Source: Chitinophagaceae bacterium (GTDB lineage: Bacteria > Bacteroidota > Bacteroidia > Chitinophagales > Chitinophagaceae). From it: a stretch of 57,029 bases of DNA. The stretch spans positions 1-57,029 of the forward strand of contig SCVJ01000046.1 in the NCBI GenBank assembly GCA_004322425.1. The letters are read 5' to 3'. Of the stretch, positions 44,925 to 56,187 are shown piece after piece. How positions within the stretch are numbered: the stretch's first letter is position 1; the number at the start of each line of letters is the position of its first letter. The notes beneath the pieces are model-generated. The model had not been told where the DNA came from and searched no databases. It worked only from the letters and a program-made list of their open reading frames with translations. A program made the position numbers and the translations under genes.

Positions 44925-45680
44925 TTACGAATCTTCGTTAGCTTTTTTCATGTCAGTTGCCGGATGAAACAAATTATTAATCCAAGCAAAAAAACTATTC
45001 ATGCCAATACTCCAATCAAATCCTCTTTTTAAAAAGAAAGCAAAAAAGAAACCGGTAATTCCACCGGCAACATCTGCAATAAATAATCCGCTTGACCAAT
45101 GAACTGTTATTTCAATAAGAACATAAACATCAGTTATTATCCAAAATGATATTCCGCCTTTTATCATAGCGAATATTTTTTCATTGCTCGCAAGTACTGT
45201 TGTTGCTATTGCAATAGCCATAATTCCCGCCGATGCGCCAGAAATATTAGTTTGAGTTATGGAAATGGCAGGTATTAAATTTATTAAAATAATTGCTGCA
45301 GCACCGCCCAATGCTCCATAAATAAAAAGTGGAATGATTTTTTTATGATTCGTTACTCTTTGAAAAAAGTAACCAAATACTCCTAGCCAAATAATATTAC
45401 CGAAGAGTTCCCAACTTTCAGCATGATAAAACATATGCGTAACGAGTGTCCACGGCTTTTTTAAAAATTCATTTGCCTGTAATGGCAGCACAACATTGCT
45501 CTGAATGTCATTTAGAAAATGTATGAACGCATTTTCTTTGCTAAATGTGAATAGATAAAAAACATAAACAAACGATTGTAACAAAAAAACAACAAATAGA
45601 ATTACAATGAGTACCAACAATGTACTTCTTTGCAAATCTGGTTGTTGATTAAATTTGTTTTGATGTGATGTAGAATTCAT
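44925..45680 (-). CDS. Rhomboid-family membrane protein lacking the catalytic histidine
   Basis: This 251-residue protein has six hydrophobic helices and the rhomboid pattern HMFYHAESWELFGNIIWLGVFG and the serine loop NISGASAGIM. The helix that normally holds the catalytic His next to GG reads IADVAGGITGF, with Asp where the neighbouring paralogue has His (WAHLGGALAG). The protein therefore looks like a non-catalytic rhomboid (pseudoprotease), which could bind partners without cutting. Its C-terminal soluble tail (DWSIGMNSFFAWINNLFHP) is extra. It follows the active-type rhomboid by 45 bases. Confidence 0.8.
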   Translation of the reverse strand: MNSTSHQNKFNQQPDLQRSTLLVLIVILFVVFLLQSFVYVFYLFTFSKENAFIHFLNDIQSNVVLPLQANEFLKKPWTLVTHMFYHAESWELFGNIIWLGVFGYFFQRVTNHKKIIPLFIYGALGGAAAIILINLIPAISITQTNISGASAGIMAIAIATTVLASNEKIFAMIKGGISFWIITDVYVLIEITVHWSSGLFIADVAGGITGFFFAFFLKRGFDWSIGMNSFFAWINNLFHPATDMKKANEDS

Positions 45681-45725
45681 TTCAAATAGTATTACCCAAA
45701 CTTTCTAAGACTGAAATTAGCAACC

Positions 45726-46343
45726 TTAATAAAACGTATCTCTTTTTGTTTTATTCCATAGGTACACTGTTATTATGCCGGCTAAAGCACCACCCAAATG
45801 TGCCCAATGCGCTACATTGTCGCCACTAACTTTGGCAACTCCACTAAATAAATCTATGGCAGCAAATCCGATTACTGCCCATTTTGCTTTTACAGGAATG
45901 GGAATAAACATTAAGTATAATTCTGTGTTGGGAAATAAAAATGCAAAGGCAGCAAAAAGTCCCATGATGGCTCCTGAAGCTCCAACGGCAACCACAAAGT
46001 CTCCCATTATTTGTTGAGCAAAAGCCGCGGCAATTCCACATAAAAGATAAAATAATAAAAATCGCTTGGGACCCCAATAATTTTCTAAAATTTTCCCAAA
46101 CATCCACAAGCTAAACATATTAAAAAATAAATGCCCCAAGCTCCCATGCATAAACATGTGTGTGACAAATTGAAAAGGCATAAATTCTTCCATCTTCCAA
46201 TTCACTAGGCCTCCGTAAGCCATTAATTGAATTTGTTGCTGCTCCAAAATAATTTGTCCTAAAAAAATTATCACATTTATTATCAATAAATTTTTTACAA
46301 CGGGAGGAAAATTATCAGGTCTTGTATAATAAAAATTGCTCAT
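45726..46343 (-). CDS. Rhomboid-family intramembrane serine protease
   Basis: This 205-residue protein of six helices has the full rhomboid signature: HMFMHGSLGHLFFNMFSLWMFG, the catalytic Ser in AVGASGAIMGLFAAFAF and the catalytic His in NVAHWAHLGGALAGI. It cleaves membrane proteins within the bilayer; substrates are unknown. It starts 15 bases behind rlmD and precedes the rhomboid-like gene on the same strand. Confidence 0.92.
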   Translation of the reverse strand: MSNFYYTRPDNFPPVVKNLLIINVIIFLGQIILEQQQIQLMAYGGLVNWKMEEFMPFQFVTHMFMHGSLGHLFFNMFSLWMFGKILENYWGPKRFLLFYLLCGIAAAFAQQIMGDFVVAVGASGAIMGLFAAFAFLFPNTELYLMFIPIPVKAKWAVIGFAAIDLFSGVAKVSGDNVAHWAHLGGALAGIITVYLWNKTKRDTFY

Positions 46344-47891: not shown

Positions 47892-49325
47892 ATGAAGCAA
47901 TTTTTATTTTTTACTTTTTTTCTAATTTCGGGGTTACAGTTATGGTCCCAAAATGAATCGTTTGAGTTGACGGTGACTTTCAAACCTTTTCAAAAACAAT
48001 ATATCTATCTCGGCTATTATTCCGGAAAGCAGAAACCAATTGTCGATTCAGTTTTATTGGATGAAAACGGTGTGGGTGTTTTTAAAAAAGATAGAAAAAT
48101 AGAAAAGGGTGTTTACCTCATTGGCTTCCCCAACAAATCGGGTTATTTTGAAATACTGATTGATAAAGAACAAAAATTTTCTGTATTTGCAGACAGTAGC
48201 AATATTCTTAATTCATTAAAATTTAAAAATTCACCCGACAACGAACTGTTTATTGAGTACCAAAAATTTACTGCGGTTAAAGGAAAAGAAATTGAATTTG
48301 CAAAACTGAATTTATCCAAAGCAACAACAAAAGCTGATTCTCTTCATTGGATTAAAACAGCAGAAAAAAGCAGTGAAGAAATTCACATTAACAGAGAATC
48401 CATCGTTACCAAAAACCCCGATGCCACTATAACGGCTTTATTGAATGCTATGAAAATGCCCGTTGTCCCTCCATCTCCAACGGGTAAATACGATTCTGTT
48501 TTTGCTTACAAATATTATAAGTCGCATTTTTGGGACAATACTTATTTTTTTGATGAACGATTGGTACGCACTTCTTTTTTTGAAGAAAAGTTGGATCAAT
48601 ATTTTGAACAACTCATTTATCCCGATCCTGATTCTGTTATAAAAGAAATAGATTGGATGTTGGGCTACGCCAGTATCAATGATGAAATGCAAAAATTTTT
48701 ACTCATAAAATTTGTCAACCGGTATTTGAACATTAAGTTTATGTGGGAAGACCGTGTATTTGTTCATTTATTTGAAAAATATTTTTCCCAAAAAGAATAT
48801 TCGTGGCTCACAGAAAAAGGAAAGAAAACTATTTTCGATCGTGCCTATAGTATGATGGCAAACTTGTTTGGATCGCAGGCAAGCAATATTGAACTTCCGG
48901 ATAGTACTGGCAAGTTACAATCCCTTTTCTCCATTCAAAATCCGTACATAGTTGTCGTTTTTTGGGACCCCGCCTGTGGCCACTGTAAGGAAACATTGCC
49001 AAAAATGGATTCGATATACAAAGTAAAATGGCGAAATGACTCTTTAAAAATTTATGCCATAGCCAAGGAAACCGATGGAAGTAAAAAAGATTGGATACGA
49101 TTTATTAATGATCATCAACTAAAAGATTGGACACATGTTTATTACTCCAAAGCTGAAAATGATGAGCGAGTAAACAATAATATTCCGAGCTATTTTCAAT
49201 TGTACGATATACAAACAGTTCCAACTTTGTATTTACTGGATAAAGACAAACGCATTCTTGCAAAAAAAATTCCTTTTGAACAAATAGATGAAGTATTGCA
49301 GTATAAATTAAAAAGCAACAAGTAA
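47892..49325 (+). CDS. TlpA-like thiol-disulfide oxidoreductase with large N-terminal domain
   Basis: This 477-residue secreted protein has a signal peptide (FLFFTFFLISGLQLWSQ), an N-terminal DUF4369-like beta-sandwich (SFELTVTFKPFQKQYIYLGYYSG), a long helical region (about 110-330) and a C-terminal thioredoxin domain with the redox motif WDPACGHCKETLPKMDS. It is predicted periplasmic and to exchange thiols with folding or cytochrome-maturation partners. It is followed by a bidirectional terminator and the convergent Omp28-like gene. Confidence 0.85.
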   Translation: MKQFLFFTFFLISGLQLWSQNESFELTVTFKPFQKQYIYLGYYSGKQKPIVDSVLLDENGVGVFKKDRKIEKGVYLIGFPNKSGYFEILIDKEQKFSVFADSSNILNSLKFKNSPDNELFIEYQKFTAVKGKEIEFAKLNLSKATTKADSLHWIKTAEKSSEEIHINRESIVTKNPDATITALLNAMKMPVVPPSPTGKYDSVFAYKYYKSHFWDNTYFFDERLVRTSFFEEKLDQYFEQLIYPDPDSVIKEIDWMLGYASINDEMQKFLLIKFVNRYLNIKFMWEDRVFVHLFEKYFSQKEYSWLTEKGKKTIFDRAYSMMANLFGSQASNIELPDSTGKLQSLFSIQNPYIVVVFWDPACGHCKETLPKMDSIYKVKWRNDSLKIYAIAKETDGSKKDWIRFINDHQLKDWTHVYYSKAENDERVNNNIPSYFQLYDIQTVPTLYLLDKDKRILAKKIPFEQIDEVLQYKLKSNK

Positions 49326-49430: not shown

Positions 49431-50507
49431 TTAATCAAAGTTTCTACTTTGTCCAGCACTTACCACTTGCGCATTATGAACTATTTTTTCTTTGCGCCCT
49501 TGGTTATTCGGTCCCTGAACAACAAAAGCTATAATTCTACACTTGTTTAAATTATACCCACTTGTATTAATGGAAAAAGTTTTTTCATAAGTAACTCCTT
49601 TAACTTGTTTGTCGGTAGGAATATTTTCACCAAAAAGATCCAATCCCGTTGCCCTTAAAACTGCATTGTGAACATATCCGCTAATGGGATTTGGCAATCC
49701 AAAATATCCATAATTTACTTGAGGATAAACAAGATCGTCTTCTACTAAATAAGTTATCAATTTTAAATTGGCACTTGTTGAAACATCAAATTTTACTTTG
49801 GTTGTTACATTAACCGTATTTCCACTAATGGATGTTACTAAAGCCAAACCCAGGGGTGCTCTACGATTGGTAAACTGCTCGTTTAGTTGTGCTGTGTTTT
49901 CGTTCCATTTAATATCACGATCAACCCAAGCGGATGGGTAACCCGTTACACTAAATGAATTTGCCAAAGCTGCGTGCGATGAAAATGTATATGGATCACT
50001 ACTTGGACCATGATTAGCAATAACAATACAATTAGGATGTCCTGCATTTACATAATTTTCTAAAGCAACACCTACTCGAGGGCAATGACCGCACCAAGTA
50101 CCGGTATAATCTTCAACAACTATTTTTTGTGAAAAAGGAGAAGGGCCTGGATCAACAGCAGTTAATGTTATTTCGGGAGAAGTAACACCAGACTTTGTTG
50201 CTTTGACTCTATACGTTCCTGCGGTTGAAGTCCAAAATGTTGAACGAGAATAAGAACCAGCGTCAATATAAATAGTGCTGGAAGAAGTAACATCGGTACC
50301 ACTTTGGTCTTTTACGGTAAAAGAAGTTTCTTCCCAACCATCTGCAAAAATCTGTGCTTTACTTAGCGTAACAGCAAGTGTATTGGCAGGAGGTGGAGGA
50401 GGAGGCGGAGTAACGGATCCACCAGAAGTACTTTTTTTGGTACAAGCTCCAATAATTAGAACTGTACACAATAAACTTCCTACTGCTATTGAATTAAATA
50501 TTTTCAT
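49431..50507 (-). CDS. Omp28-related outer-membrane lipoprotein with CGHC motif
   Basis: This 358-residue lipoprotein (lipobox IIGAC, Cys22) has a proline-rich linker (VTPPPPPPPANT), an Ig-like domain (about residues 45-120) and a thioredoxin-fold Omp28-type domain starting EDYTGTWCGHCPRVGVALENY. The active-site CGHC matches protein disulfide isomerases, so a redox or isomerase role at the outer membrane is likely. It is transcribed divergently from a TlpA gene, sharing a 114-base intergenic region. Confidence 0.85.
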   Translation of the reverse strand: MKIFNSIAVGSLLCTVLIIGACTKKSTSGGSVTPPPPPPPANTLAVTLSKAQIFADGWEETSFTVKDQSGTDVTSSSTIYIDAGSYSRSTFWTSTAGTYRVKATKSGVTSPEITLTAVDPGPSPFSQKIVVEDYTGTWCGHCPRVGVALENYVNAGHPNCIVIANHGPSSDPYTFSSHAALANSFSVTGYPSAWVDRDIKWNENTAQLNEQFTNRRAPLGLALVTSISGNTVNVTTKVKFDVSTSANLKLITYLVEDDLVYPQVNYGYFGLPNPISGYVHNAVLRATGLDLFGENIPTDKQVKGVTYEKTFSINTSGYNLNKCRIIAFVVQGPNNQGRKEKIVHNAQVVSAGQSRNFD

Positions 50508-50621
50508 ACATTTAATTTTTAAGAAATTTAGAATTGGTTTAAGTCTTAAAACTAATCTATTTTTTGGAAATTCTATTTTTTCGGCAAATACCCCGAAATT
50601 TACCTCTATAATTACAGGAGA

Positions 50622-51104
50622 ATGAAAAAAATTTATTGTTTAACCCTCTGTATTTGTGCTGCTTATTTTATGTCAGCGCAGGGTGCATTGCCCGATGTAA
50701 AAATAAAGTCGTTAAAAGGTGAGGAAGTTTTATTTAGCTCATTGGGCGCCAAAAGCGATACTGCTATAATTGTAAGCTTGTGGGCTACTTGGTGCGTACC
50801 TTGTATTTTAGAATTAGAAACCATCAAAGAACTATATGATGAAAAACAAAAAGAAGTACCGTTTAAATTAATTGCTATTTCCATTGATGACTCCAGAACA
50901 GCACAACGTGTAAAACCATTTGTAATAGGCAAAGGTTGGCCATTTGATATTTATCTTGATATTAATAGTGATTTGAAAAGAGCATTGAATATTAATGATG
51001 TACCCCATATTCTAATCATTAAAAATGGAAAAATTGTTTACCAGCACAACGGCTACGTAGCTGGAAACGAAGAAGAACTTTTTCAAAAATTGAAAGAACT
51101 TTAA
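50622..51104 (+). CDS. Small TlpA-family thiol-disulfide oxidoreductase
   Basis: This 160-residue periplasmic thioredoxin-like protein has a signal peptide (CICAAYFMSAQ) and the redox site VSLWATWCVPCILELETIKE, with the cis-proline region DVPHILIIKNG. These two cysteines are the only ones in the mature protein. It lies 3 bases in front of the DUF6029 barrel gene, so the two are almost certainly co-transcribed and may work together. Confidence 0.9.
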   Translation: MKKIYCLTLCICAAYFMSAQGALPDVKIKSLKGEEVLFSSLGAKSDTAIIVSLWATWCVPCILELETIKELYDEKQKEVPFKLIAISIDDSRTAQRVKPFVIGKGWPFDIYLDINSDLKRALNINDVPHILIIKNGKIVYQHNGYVAGNEEELFQKLKEL

Positions 51105-51107
51105 ACT

Positions 51108-52697
51108 ATGGCCTACATGAAGAAATTCTATCTTTTACTTTTTACAACTTCCGTTTGCGTATTGGGGTTTGGACAAAAAACTACAGGAAATTTTAATGGA
51201 AGTTTTGAAACCTATAATCAGATATATAGAAAGGATTTAAAAATTGGAGCGGTTTTGCCACCCGATCGTGTTGGCTCCAATAATTATTTAAAATTGGATT
51301 ATAACTATAGCCAGTTTACAGTTGGGGTTCAATTGGAAGCCTATTTGCCCTCTACACAGGGTTATCCATTTATTGCTAATGACAATAAAATTGCTAACAA
51401 ATATTTTAAATACACTGCAACAAATTTTTCTTTGCAAGTAGGAGATTTTTATGAGCAATTTGGTAGCGGACTTGTTTTTCGTTCTTGGGAAAATAGACAA
51501 ATAGGAATTAACAATTCAATCGAAGGTGCAAATTTTCAAATAACACCACTTCCATTTATTAAGTTAAAAACTATTTACGGAAGACAGCGAAATAATTTTA
51601 ATTACAACAACAGTAATATCCGTGCTATCGATGCTGAAATTGATTTTTCAAAAATCAATGCAATCAATTCTCCAACAAAAGTAGTAGCTGGTTTTAGTTA
51701 TGTAAGCCGATATGAGCCATACACGGGACCTATACAAAATTTTCCTGCTACTGTAAAAGCAACTTCAACTCGATTGGATTTGAGTGGCGCCAATACTTCG
51801 TTTTCTGTAGAATACGTTCACAAAAAAAGGGATCCCCACGCAGCTAATAATTTTGTTGGAACTCCCGGTAAGGCATTATTATCCAATTTCACGTTTACGC
51901 AAAATAATTTTGGTGCTACTGCAACATTCAGAGCAATGTCAAATATGGATTTCAGAAGTGAACGGGAAGCTACAGGAAGCGCTAGTTTAATGAATTATAT
52001 TCCAGCATTAACCAAGCAGCACGATTATTTAACAACTAATATTTATGTTTATAATGCTCAACGACAAGCAGAAGTTGGCGGGCAAACAGATTGGTTTTTA
52101 TATGCCCCAAAAGGTTCTTCTCTTGGTGGCAAATACGGTTCAAATTTTTCAATGAACTTTTCTCATTATCGTGGTTTAAAAAATGCTAGTAATATTTTTA
52201 GCGTTGGCAACAAAGAATATTTTCACGATTTTAATTTAGAATGGAAAAAGAAACTCACTGAAAATCTGTCTTTCATTTTAGTGTACCAAAATGTTTTCTA
52301 CAACCGATTGGTTATTGAAGGCGAACCACTGCCCGATGTAAAAGCAAATACAATTGTTTTGAATTCGATTTATAAATATGCAAAGAAAAAAACTTTTCGT
52401 TTCGAACTCCAACATTTAGCCACCCAACAAGATAAAGGTAATTGGGTAGCCCTTCTTACAGAGTTTTCTTTTGCACCAAAGTTTACTTTTTACTGGAACG
52501 ATTTATATAATTACGGAACCACAAATACACATTATCAAACTGTGGGTGGAAGTTATTCAAAATCGGGAACGCGCCTAGGATTAAGTTACGGAAGGCAACG
52601 TGCTGGCTTGTTTTGTGTAGGTGGTGTTTGCCGCTATGTTCCTGCGTCAAGCGGATTTACGGTTATGCTCAATACTACTCTTCATAATAAACAATAG
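51108..52697 (+). CDS. DUF6029 outer-membrane beta-barrel protein
   Basis: This protein of about 529 residues fits the DUF6029 family of Bacteroidota. After a signal peptide (FTTSVCVLGFGQ) the sequence alternates polar and aromatic residues in strand-length stretches and contains QVGDFYEQFGSGLVFRSWENR, as expected for an outer-membrane barrel. The mature protein has only two cysteines, in FCVGGVCRYVP near the C-terminus, which could form a disulfide made or checked by the adjoining TlpA. The function is unknown. The ATG at 51117 is an equally good start. Confidence 0.78.
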   Translation: MAYMKKFYLLLFTTSVCVLGFGQKTTGNFNGSFETYNQIYRKDLKIGAVLPPDRVGSNNYLKLDYNYSQFTVGVQLEAYLPSTQGYPFIANDNKIANKYFKYTATNFSLQVGDFYEQFGSGLVFRSWENRQIGINNSIEGANFQITPLPFIKLKTIYGRQRNNFNYNNSNIRAIDAEIDFSKINAINSPTKVVAGFSYVSRYEPYTGPIQNFPATVKATSTRLDLSGANTSFSVEYVHKKRDPHAANNFVGTPGKALLSNFTFTQNNFGATATFRAMSNMDFRSEREATGSASLMNYIPALTKQHDYLTTNIYVYNAQRQAEVGGQTDWFLYAPKGSSLGGKYGSNFSMNFSHYRGLKNASNIFSVGNKEYFHDFNLEWKKKLTENLSFILVYQNVFYNRLVIEGEPLPDVKANTIVLNSIYKYAKKKTFRFELQHLATQQDKGNWVALLTEFSFAPKFTFYWNDLYNYGTTNTHYQTVGGSYSKSGTRLGLSYGRQRAGLFCVGGVCRYVPASSGFTVMLNTTLHNKQ

Positions 52698-53898: not shown

Positions 53899-56187
53899 AT
53901 GAAAAAAATTCTTCTTCTCCAGCTGTTACTGGGATTAATGCTTAATTGCTTTTCCCAAACCTATCAGATTATTGACAATGATGCAGACGACAGGGATACA
54001 ACAGAATTAGAATCCCTTCCTTGGTTTGGCAACAATCAATACCTGAATAATTTATTGGATAGTATGGGCTATCCATCATCAGCAGACAGAATTGTTGGGT
54101 CCGATAGGGTTAAATACCGTGTGCCAATAAAGTTTTGGGTTTATAGGAGGTCTGATGGTACAGGCGGACCCAATTTGCAAAATCTTCAAACCTATATAGA
54201 CAATTTAAACCGGATATATAACACTGACAATAACACATGGATTGGTTTTTATCTGCTTTGTGATATTGGATTTATTAATGATAACAAATGGTTTGATATA
54301 CAGGGAGATGGTGAGGCATGGAACCTTATTCAAAATAACAAGTCAAGCGGATGTATTAATATTCATATTGTGGGCAGCTATGAGCAAGCCGCAGGTATCC
54401 ATATCCGAGCAAGATTTTTTGGGCGTGATGGAATTGTTCTAAATTTTGGAGCAACTGTTGCAAATGCAAACACTACAATAGCACATGAAGTGGGACACTA
54501 TTTTGAACTTGACCACACTCATCAGTACTCAAACAGAGGTAAATGCAGAAAAGAGGCAATTGATAGAAATAGAACATGGCCTTTTATTATGTTTTGCCCT
54601 TTCGGTGGTGGTGGGCCAATTAGTCAAAAAATTTGTGAAGCTACAGGGGACCTTTTAGAAGATACACCTGCCGACCCTGATTTATCAAACAACAGATTTA
54701 ACAATCTCAGTGCATGTACATTTAATGCTCTTGGAGATTATAATAATTCCAGAGACCCATGGAATGACACATATGTAGCTCCACCGGCAGGTTCTCAACA
54801 ACCTAACTCCAGAAATGTTATGAGTTATAATCGTGACAGAGATTGCCGGATAGTTTTTTCAAGGCTTCAAATAGCCGTGATGTTATATTCCATAGAAAGA
54901 GGGAAAAGTAAAAACAATAAAAGTTCATGGAAAGATGAAGGAGCGGAATACGATGAATACGAAATGGATAATTTCAGGGAAGTGGCAATAACCAGGAACA
55001 TCTCTATAAATGAAATTCAGGAAAGAAACTTTCACCAGCAGTATGAAGAGGTGGGTGCAGTATGGACACAATGCGATGTTGATTGGGTAAGATTTGTAGC
55101 ACCATGCAACAGTAATTTCGACGTATTTACTTTTGCTATGCCAAATAGAACAAATGCCGATACTCGGCTAACATTATTTGACAACAATTCGGTACAGTTG
55201 GCTCAAAACGATGATATATCTCCCACCAATCAGTTTTCAAGGATTCAATTTAATTTTATCGCTGGCAGTGAATATTTTATTCGAATTGAAAACATGAGTA
55301 ATTTAACAACAGGATATTATGCTCTACAAATTGGGCAATTTTCAATTATTGGTAACGCTACATTGTGTACATCGGGTTCTTATTCTGTTCAAAATATGCC
55401 GACTTGTGCTACAGTAACTTGGAGTTCTATTCCTGCAGGTATAGTATCTTTTAATCCAACTGGCCCGACACCAAACTCATCAACTAAATTAACAAAAATA
55501 AACAATGGCACAGCTTTGTTAATTGCAACAGTTGCATATTCCAACTCCCCCATTAACTATACATATGAAAAATATATTGGAGTGGGGGTTCCAATTATAA
55601 AAGGTTGGTTTAATAGTCCAACAAATTCAAATGAGCCCTTAGCGGCATCGTCAAGTTTTGAATTTATTTGGAATGATGCCTGTTATACAAAAATGATTAG
55701 TACGAATATGGACATAACCGCAAACACCACAGTAACATGGCAAGATGCCGGAAATTCTGGTGGGGTTACCTGGTATCAAAATGGTAATAATTTGAATTTT
55801 TATTTTTCTAACCTATACCAATGGGCTTATTTCAGGGTAATTGCAACAAATTCCTGCGGTTCTCAAAGCTGGCTATACCGGTTTAGGTCAGTATATGAAA
55901 ATTGTGAAGGGGGAGGTCCCTCTTTACGTGTAACACTTTCACCCAACCCTGTAACAAGCATTATTAATATAACATTAATTGACAGAAGGGATATGAAAAA
56001 ACAAAAGGAAATAGTTGAAATACGTATGCTTGATAAGATGGGGAATATCAAACAAAAATGGAGTTATAGTAAAGGAAGCGGTACTCAGACCCGGCAAGTA
56101 AATGTCAATAGCTTACCAGCAGACATTTACAACATTATGGTTTTTGATGGCATGAATTGGGCTACTGAAAAATTCATTAAACAATAA
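53899..56187 (+). CDS. Secreted M43-like (cytophagalysin-type) metalloprotease with type IX sorting domain
   Basis: This 762-residue protein has a signal peptide (KKILLLQLLLGLMLNCFSQ), a zinc-protease domain, a PPC-like beta domain (about 360-460) and a C-terminal type IX secretion signal (LSPNPVTSIINITL to the end). The zinc site reads HEVGHYFELDH (His196, Glu197, His200, His206), with the M43 feature GDLLEDTPADP and the Met-turn NVMSYNRD (Met308). The Gly that metzincins usually have three residues before the last zinc ligand is Glu203 here. It is probably exported through the type IX system and attached to the surface. Confidence 0.82.
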   Translation: MKKILLLQLLLGLMLNCFSQTYQIIDNDADDRDTTELESLPWFGNNQYLNNLLDSMGYPSSADRIVGSDRVKYRVPIKFWVYRRSDGTGGPNLQNLQTYIDNLNRIYNTDNNTWIGFYLLCDIGFINDNKWFDIQGDGEAWNLIQNNKSSGCINIHIVGSYEQAAGIHIRARFFGRDGIVLNFGATVANANTTIAHEVGHYFELDHTHQYSNRGKCRKEAIDRNRTWPFIMFCPFGGGGPISQKICEATGDLLEDTPADPDLSNNRFNNLSACTFNALGDYNNSRDPWNDTYVAPPAGSQQPNSRNVMSYNRDRDCRIVFSRLQIAVMLYSIERGKSKNNKSSWKDEGAEYDEYEMDNFREVAITRNISINEIQERNFHQQYEEVGAVWTQCDVDWVRFVAPCNSNFDVFTFAMPNRTNADTRLTLFDNNSVQLAQNDDISPTNQFSRIQFNFIAGSEYFIRIENMSNLTTGYYALQIGQFSIIGNATLCTSGSYSVQNMPTCATVTWSSIPAGIVSFNPTGPTPNSSTKLTKINNGTALLIATVAYSNSPINYTYEKYIGVGVPIIKGWFNSPTNSNEPLAASSSFEFIWNDACYTKMISTNMDITANTTVTWQDAGNSGGVTWYQNGNNLNFYFSNLYQWAYFRVIATNSCGSQSWLYRFRSVYENCEGGGPSLRVTLSPNPVTSIINITLIDRRDMKKQKEIVEIRMLDKMGNIKQKWSYSKGSGTQTRQVNVNSLPADIYNIMVFDGMNWATEKFIKQ

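Follow-up and report, generated by a model that had tools for sequence, protein, structure and literature searches.

A conserved TlpA-DUF6029-Omp28 module of Bacteroidota and a possible thiol-disulfide relay at the outer membrane

Disulfide control in the cytoplasm and the periplasm is well described; how the cell keeps its exported surface proteins reduced, or corrects them, outside the outer membrane is to our knowledge an open question. Among the closest described systems is the DsbD/CcdA relay of the inner membrane, which likewise pairs a membrane protein carrying a Cys pair with thioredoxin-fold partners of the TlpA type (CxPC); TlpA-type CxPC proteins are usually reductases and are fed by DsbD/CcdA. 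Here we analyse a 57,029-nucleotide stretch of a Chitinophagaceae bacterium (assembly GCA_004322425.1, contig SCVJ01000046.1, hereafter the window) that encodes a small TlpA, a DUF6029 (PF19494) outer-membrane β-barrel with a lone Cx4C pair, and an Omp28 lipoprotein. In place of the helical membrane domain of DsbD/CcdA the window has an outer-membrane β-barrel, and homology between the two is not expected; the far-side partner is here a lipoprotein or a thioredoxin-fold protein with a type IX secretion system (T9SS) tail. LptD, also a large barrel of the outer membrane, needs disulfide chemistry to mature, but DUF6029 is a different barrel with different cysteines, and we know of no dedicated TlpA encoded adjacent to LptD. 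The TlpA-DUF6029-Omp28 module is real and is spread across many Bacteroidota families, and we propose, with a little less than even confidence, that the three proteins form one outer-membrane thiol-redox module in which the barrel relays thiol-disulfide equivalents from TlpA to surface thioredoxins. That proposal rests on which genes are present and which cysteines they conserve, on co-occurrence across genomes, on a gene fusion, on a coupled switch between partner and loop, and on the T9SS tails of many partners.

Parts of the module have been met before in Porphyromonas gingivalis. The closest solved relative of the window TlpA is 2m72 (6.5e-35; 7.7e-63 with the subfamily profile), which is thioredoxin-like, as the window protein is, but was deposited as uncharacterised. 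PG_2175 is probably the TlpA solved as 2m72 and PG_2174 probably a DUF6029 protein, in which case the P. gingivalis cluster would be PG_2173-2175. PG2173, of the same family as the window lipoprotein, is named as the Omp28 lipoprotein of P. gingivalis in PMC9722745; passages elsewhere treat P. gingivalis Omp28 as an adhesin or receptor and an antigen (PMC7290125) and list PG_2174 as an uncharacterised vesicle protein of strain W83 (PMC4335976). The passages on P. gingivalis Omp28 mention neither a thiol-redox role nor a link to DUF6029. Across the titles, abstract openings and passages retrieved on DUF6029, on Omp28 with disulfide, thioredoxin or selenoprotein, on TlpA and on the P. gingivalis tags, no description of the module was found, so that, as far as found, it is undescribed, in line with the initial annotation of the window.

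DUF6029 was sought with the whole Pfam profile in an evenly drawn sample of 395 genomes of the phylum, with flanking DNA retrieved for every match, and is present in 98 of them (96 above the Pfam cut-off); a class sample added 295 genomes. The 178 loci examined comprise 97 phylum loci, 80 named loci and the window, one further locus (L127), below the cut-off and without the motif, having been dropped. The named loci, among which are genera such as Flavobacterium, Mucilaginibacter and Hymenobacter, were kept from 574 matches to an alignment of 21 DUF6029 sequences (A1) and are biased towards the motif, Cx4C being one of the two search patterns, whereas the phylum loci were found by the whole profile; a contig scan with the window barrel alone as query returned no relative. 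Two further alignments hold 81 DUF6029 sequences (A2) and 19 partner TlpAs (A3).

The mature window barrel has exactly two cysteines, as the initial annotation had noted, the only other one (C17) lying in a signal peptide assigned by eye. This pair is kept as Cx4C in 176 of the 178 loci, and in 167 of the 176 it stands exactly 17 residues from the protein end. A1 and A2 show no variation at C500, G502, G503 and C505 (numbering starts at the second Met); the first of the two hairpin glycines is often S or N in more distant relatives. A C-terminal F closes the protein in 145 of the 176 intact loci; the window protein has a short additional tail with a terminal Q. The two loci lacking the motif are a frameshifted gene (L036), in which Cx4C is intact in another frame, and a truncated gene (L038). 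For the former a selenocysteine TGA was considered and rejected, the motif being intact in the other frame. In the latter (L038:8128-9246, genome G226), DUF6029 ends at codon 372, the adjoining TlpA is intact and the downstream sequence reads as another protein.

Presence of a dedicated TlpA follows presence of the barrel. With the A3 profile at a chosen limit of E 1e-25, the partner TlpA was found in 93 of the 98 phylum genomes with DUF6029 and in 0 of the 297 without it. Of the five genomes missed, G022, G104, G112 and G123 do carry the partner next to the barrel gene, at 87-91 bits, and the remaining one is the dropped DUF6029 match that falls short of the Pfam cut-off; the best other TlpA in 20 genomes without DUF6029 reached 79 bits, and the margin between partner and other TlpAs is thus real, though not wide. 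In the class sample, at a limit of E 1e-23 loosened to admit four sub-threshold partners, DUF6029 occurs in 207 genomes and TlpA in 211, with both in 202. Within families f1, f2, f4 and f5 both presence states occur, and TlpA and DUF6029 agree. The partner carries CxPC in 149 of 150 loci, the window left out (one, L062, read by eye).

The two genes are also physically linked. Of the 94 partner-TlpA matches, 81 are upstream of DUF6029, 76 of them in the same orientation and 5 divergent, and 13 are elsewhere in the assembly (12 genomes), two of these 13 with certainty, since they share a contig with DUF6029 at distances of 117 and 152 kb; some of the pairs on separate contigs may be assembly breaks. 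The initial annotation had inferred a possible dedicated oxidation or isomerisation path for the barrel and had asked whether the Cys pair is conserved only in genomes where TlpA is adjacent. A dedicated thiol-redox link between TlpA and barrel is supported by the co-occurrence and the near-universal motif, and neither outcome named as refuting was seen, since the pair is rarely absent and adjacency is widely conserved; a restriction to adjacent TlpA was rejected, the pair being kept as well where TlpA is encoded at a distance. The window's own family includes G292, assembled in 3 contigs, in which TlpA and DUF6029 form one open frame (L101), the sole such fusion among the loci tabulated. Both the stop codon and the signal peptide of the barrel are gone, which makes an assembly slip unlikely.

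A second thioredoxin-fold partner usually accompanies the pair. Omp28 (PF11551 at E 0.001, with 75 of the 83 matching genomes above the cut-off) is present in 76 of 97 genomes with DUF6029 and in 7 of 298 others, G227 being counted among the latter, an association stronger than the window by itself could have revealed. An Omp28-like protein lies within three open reading frames (ORFs) of DUF6029 in 64 of 96 loci from the phylum sample and in 78 of the 80 named ones, a count whose phylum part leaves out the window and L060, the second copy in G180. The 21 DUF6029 genomes without Pfam Omp28 comprise 18 of family f24 together with G123, G183 and G218; G123 nevertheless has an Omp28-like neighbour, and in the remaining 20 a thioredoxin-fold neighbour, mostly CPHC, occupies the place of Omp28. 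By regular expression at least one thioredoxin neighbour carries a lipobox or a T9SS tail in 18 of those 20 loci, as in L087, where a lipoprotein and a T9SS-tailed thioredoxin adjoin. Aligned together (A5: 109 rows, less 8 removed by hand, plus the window, giving 102), second partners share only the two CxxC cysteines as invariant columns, and by Pfam they match Omp28 (67), Redoxin (33), Por_Secre_tail (41) and CHU_C (10). The rows removed were upstream partner TlpAs in L061, L063, L070 and L078 and extra opposite-strand thioredoxin-like ORFs in L081, L084, L085 and L123. At least one second partner with a lipobox or T9SS tail was found by regular expression in 62 of 85 phylum and 66 of 78 named loci (the window left out, the rest unplaced); a lipobox alone is no proof of surface exposure, while the T9SS tails imply that for many second partners the destination is extracellular.

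Which second partner is present is mirrored in the barrel itself. The residue that follows the second hairpin Cys is R in 137, Q in 3 and N in 1 of the loci with Omp28, Y in 20 of 20 loci with another thioredoxin, and R in 14 loci with neither, so that partner type and loop residue show zero crossover; three Omp28 loci fell outside the regular expression used, two broken (L036, L038) and one read as R by eye (L132). On these sequences the switch ties the DUF6029 loop to the kind of second partner encoded nearby. Apart from this, four loci hold T9SS-tail proteins of 242-270 residues with a close Cys pair between the Omp28-like gene and TlpA (L050:6457-7182, L053:6295-7032, L054:10092-10901, L046:6306-7031; tail confirmed by Pfam in L050 and L053), which are candidate clients of the module.

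An AlphaFold2 model of DUF6029 from 81 sequences (predicted local distance difference test, pLDDT, 94.2; predicted template modelling score, pTM, 0.88) has a strand list that we read as 24 membrane strands, with inward turns averaging 4 residues and outward loops averaging 14; an even strand number with short inner and longer outer loops is what marks an outer-membrane β-barrel. As short turns face inward and long loops outward, the hairpin falls in the outward loop that joins strands 23 and 24, the last of the barrel, which by strand parity and loop length we infer to be extracellular. Three long outward loops are conserved, loop 3 (112-134), loop 7 (276-317) and loop 12 (495-510). Such conservation, unusual for surface loops, suggests that they may fold inward, and the hairpin loop is the most conserved of the outward loops (3.51, next 3.46, in a motif-biased set). 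A structure search with the model returned generic barrels only and no specific relative; among them are the usher FimD (Z 18.9, rmsd 4.4 over 368 residues), PapC, Occ porins and AlgE. RecA, which a sequence search with the DUF6029 alignment returned (three solved entries, 36 positions), was taken as spurious.

In the proposed relay the Cx4C hairpin of DUF6029 would alternate between dithiol and disulfide, exchanging thiols with the periplasmic TlpA (CxPC) from inside and with a surface or extracellular partner from outside, be it an Omp28 lipoprotein, a T9SS-tailed Omp28 or a mostly CPHC thioredoxin. The barrel would thereby pass thiol-disulfide equivalents between the periplasm and the cell surface. 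The favoured flow would be outward, from DsbD through TlpA and DUF6029 to the surface thioredoxin, and the electrons so delivered would reduce or isomerise disulfides of exported surface proteins. Thiol exchange among the three proteins, the position of the hairpin and the direction of flow are predictions of this reading. CPHC is the motif of DsbA, and inward flow is for that reason possible in the group with CPHC thioredoxins. DsbD was found in 19 of 20 genomes with DUF6029, and its presence permits outward reduction without proving it. As a separate observation, suggestive and not used as evidence, VKOR occurs in 1 of 20 genomes with DUF6029 and 6 of 20 others, possibly reflecting differing oxidative routes.

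The same data can be read in terms of assembly, the main rival explanation, which we regard as a serious one though on balance rather doubtful. TlpA, with Omp28, would form, keep open or isomerise the Cys pair of unfolded DUF6029 in the periplasm, and the mature disulfide would staple the last loop of a barrel whose own task is a different one, for instance export or import by way of its 24-strand pore. The conserved pair does adjoin the last strand, TlpA does track DUF6029 and a natural fusion exists; the conservation of outward loops 3, 7 and 12 hints at a pore in use, and the nearest folds are ushers, Occ porins, AlgE and LptD, of which LptD likewise requires disulfide maturation. Assembly leaves unexplained, however, both the frequent T9SS tail or lipobox on the second partner and the partner-dependent loop residue, and one Cys pair in so short a hairpin would hardly require a dedicated isomerase. 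It is because of the T9SS tails, the lipoboxes and the coupled switch that the relay is favoured over assembly; the tailed and lipobox-bearing second partners suggest that thiols may be exchanged at the surface, rather than that the barrel is being folded. A redox-gated pore, in which the hairpin, its state set by TlpA and Omp28, would open or close the barrel to a polysaccharide or some other substrate, fits the large barrel and its highly conserved loops, and we consider it unlikely: the recurring neighbours are thiol proteins, in tables that tagged DUF6029, TlpA and Omp28 only and in which polysaccharide genes were not sought. A polysaccharide role for DUF6029-like barrels has been suggested from the HHpred similarity of Wzi-barrel homologues in PMC9603273, the one paper found that mentions DUF6029 and the only source of the Wzi similarity; AlgE is among the generic matches of our model. 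Common descent can also preserve gene order, and TlpA and Omp28 might be bystanders in synteny without shared function, the Cys pair being a static structural disulfide. We hold this to be very improbable, given that unlinked pairs persist, that the presence pattern follows across families, and that both a TlpA-DUF6029 fusion and a coupled partner/loop switch exist.

Several observations weigh against the proposed relay. For a periplasmic TlpA to reach an extracellular hairpin, the loop would have to fold into the lumen or the contact to take place before insertion. On the supporting side, TlpA and barrel predicted as one joined chain (24 rows, pLDDT 82.8) gave a pTM of 0.81, which beside our own rough estimate of ~0.7 for a free-floating TlpA weakly suggests a defined placement, a value that stands without a control. 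Some of the parts occur alone: Omp28 is found without DUF6029 in 7 genomes, two of the matches being strong, no TlpA was detected in 5 of the 207 class genomes that have DUF6029 (three of the five 80-84% complete), and TlpA occurs without DUF6029 in 9 class genomes, 8 of family f66 and G633. For 12 of the 97 phylum loci and 2 of the 80 named ones no second thioredoxin was found within three ORFs, and 22 phylum and 19 named Omp28-like proteins have neither lipobox nor T9SS tail by regular expression. The R/Y switch may represent one lineage moving as a unit, and the co-occurrence of TlpA, DUF6029 and Omp28 is partly phylogenetic, the sampled genomes being related; a Fisher test on the phylum counts is for that reason given no weight. 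DsbD is present as well in 20 of 20 genomes without DUF6029 and, being common to both groups, does not discriminate between them.

Family f66 was considered as an exception to the TlpA/DUF6029 pairing and set aside, its TlpA copies there sitting in other gene contexts. In L225, L226 and L228-L230, from genomes mostly without DUF6029, a TlpA paralog with an eroded CxxC (CTNC, CNNC or absent) stands beside a SIR2-type gene, a call resting on Pfam in L225, on likeness in L226 and L228 and on a same-length neighbour in L229 and L230. In L221-L224 a TlpA with intact CxPC directly precedes a gene of 213-216 residues, a β-barrel by Pfam in L223, whose sequences in L222 and L223 have no mature cysteine pair; this is a possible second TlpA-barrel pairing.

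Coordinates in the window are given below. The layout put forward in the initial annotation, with Omp28 and TlpA divergent and TlpA ending 3 bases before DUF6029 on the same strand, was confirmed, and the window genome has one match each for DUF6029, Omp28 and DsbD. The DUF6029 product matches PF19494 at 572.7 bits (cut-off 27) over positions 1-537 of 538. The window TlpA matches Redoxin at 49.5 bits (cut-off 26.6) and falls below the ResA cut-off (NCBIfam NF002854, 55.6 bits against 170), which by sequence places it in a subfamily other than ResA; it is too short to carry a sorting tail, and with C6, C10 and C12 in a signal peptide assigned by eye the mature protein has only the CVPC pair (C58, C61), as first described. 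The window Omp28 matches PF11551 at 97.6 bits (cut-off 34.9) and NCBIfam lipoprot_Omp28 (NF033782) at 57.3 bits, below the cut-off of 150, and is on that comparison divergent from the NF033782 subfamily; its cysteines are C14, C22 (lipobox by eye), C139 and C142 (CGHC), C160 and C323.

Features of the TlpA-DUF6029-Omp28 locus in the window
Feature	Position	Strand	Basis
TlpA, putative dedicated thiol-disulfide oxidoreductase	50622..51104	+	Redoxin/AhpC-TSA match; signal peptide by eye
TlpA CVPC (WCVPC), codons 58-61	50793-50804	+	Cysteine listing
DUF6029 (PF19494) outer-membrane β-barrel	51108..52697	+	Pfam and AlphaFold2 model, 24 strands read
Cx4C hairpin CVGGVC, C503 and C508 of DUF6029	52614..52631	+	Conserved cysteine pair
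Hairpin-bearing loop between last two DUF6029 strands	52599..52646	+	Extracellular position inferred from strand parity and loop length
Omp28 lipoprotein, CGHC	49431..50507	-	PF11551; lipobox LIIGAC by eye
Omp28 CGHC, codons 139-142	50082-50093	-	Cysteine listing
Divergent Omp28/TlpA intergenic region, 114 bp	50508..50621	.	Both promoters presumed inside
Second TlpA-like gene (DUF4369, DUF5106, thioredoxin, CGHC)	47892..49325	+	Neighbour, probably outside conserved core

The second TlpA-like gene, which had been described as flanking the cluster, is present, but it is not conserved with it: only the close relative L101, among the loci tabulated, keeps a strong counterpart in that position, and the gene therefore probably lies outside the core. 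Further away, the product of 53899-56187 carries a T9SS tail (Por_Secre_tail, 30 bits) with a weak metalloprotease match below the cut-off, so that a T9SS is probably present in the window's genome, and at 44925-46343 two neighbouring putative rhomboid-like membrane genes were recognised from sequence.

The module thus reaches beyond a local oddity and suggests that disulfides are managed at the outer membrane, or even across it. A first function can be proposed for DUF6029, and Omp28, so far described as an antigen and adhesin, becomes a probable thiol oxidoreductase; with two thioredoxin-fold partners flanking a Cys-bearing barrel, extracellular disulfide control becomes directly testable. 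A thiol-disulfide relay that spans an outer membrane and controls disulfides outside the cell would be the first of its kind, a possibility that we advance tentatively and with more doubt than conviction; if the relay is true, bacteria with the module would control disulfides beyond their outer membrane.

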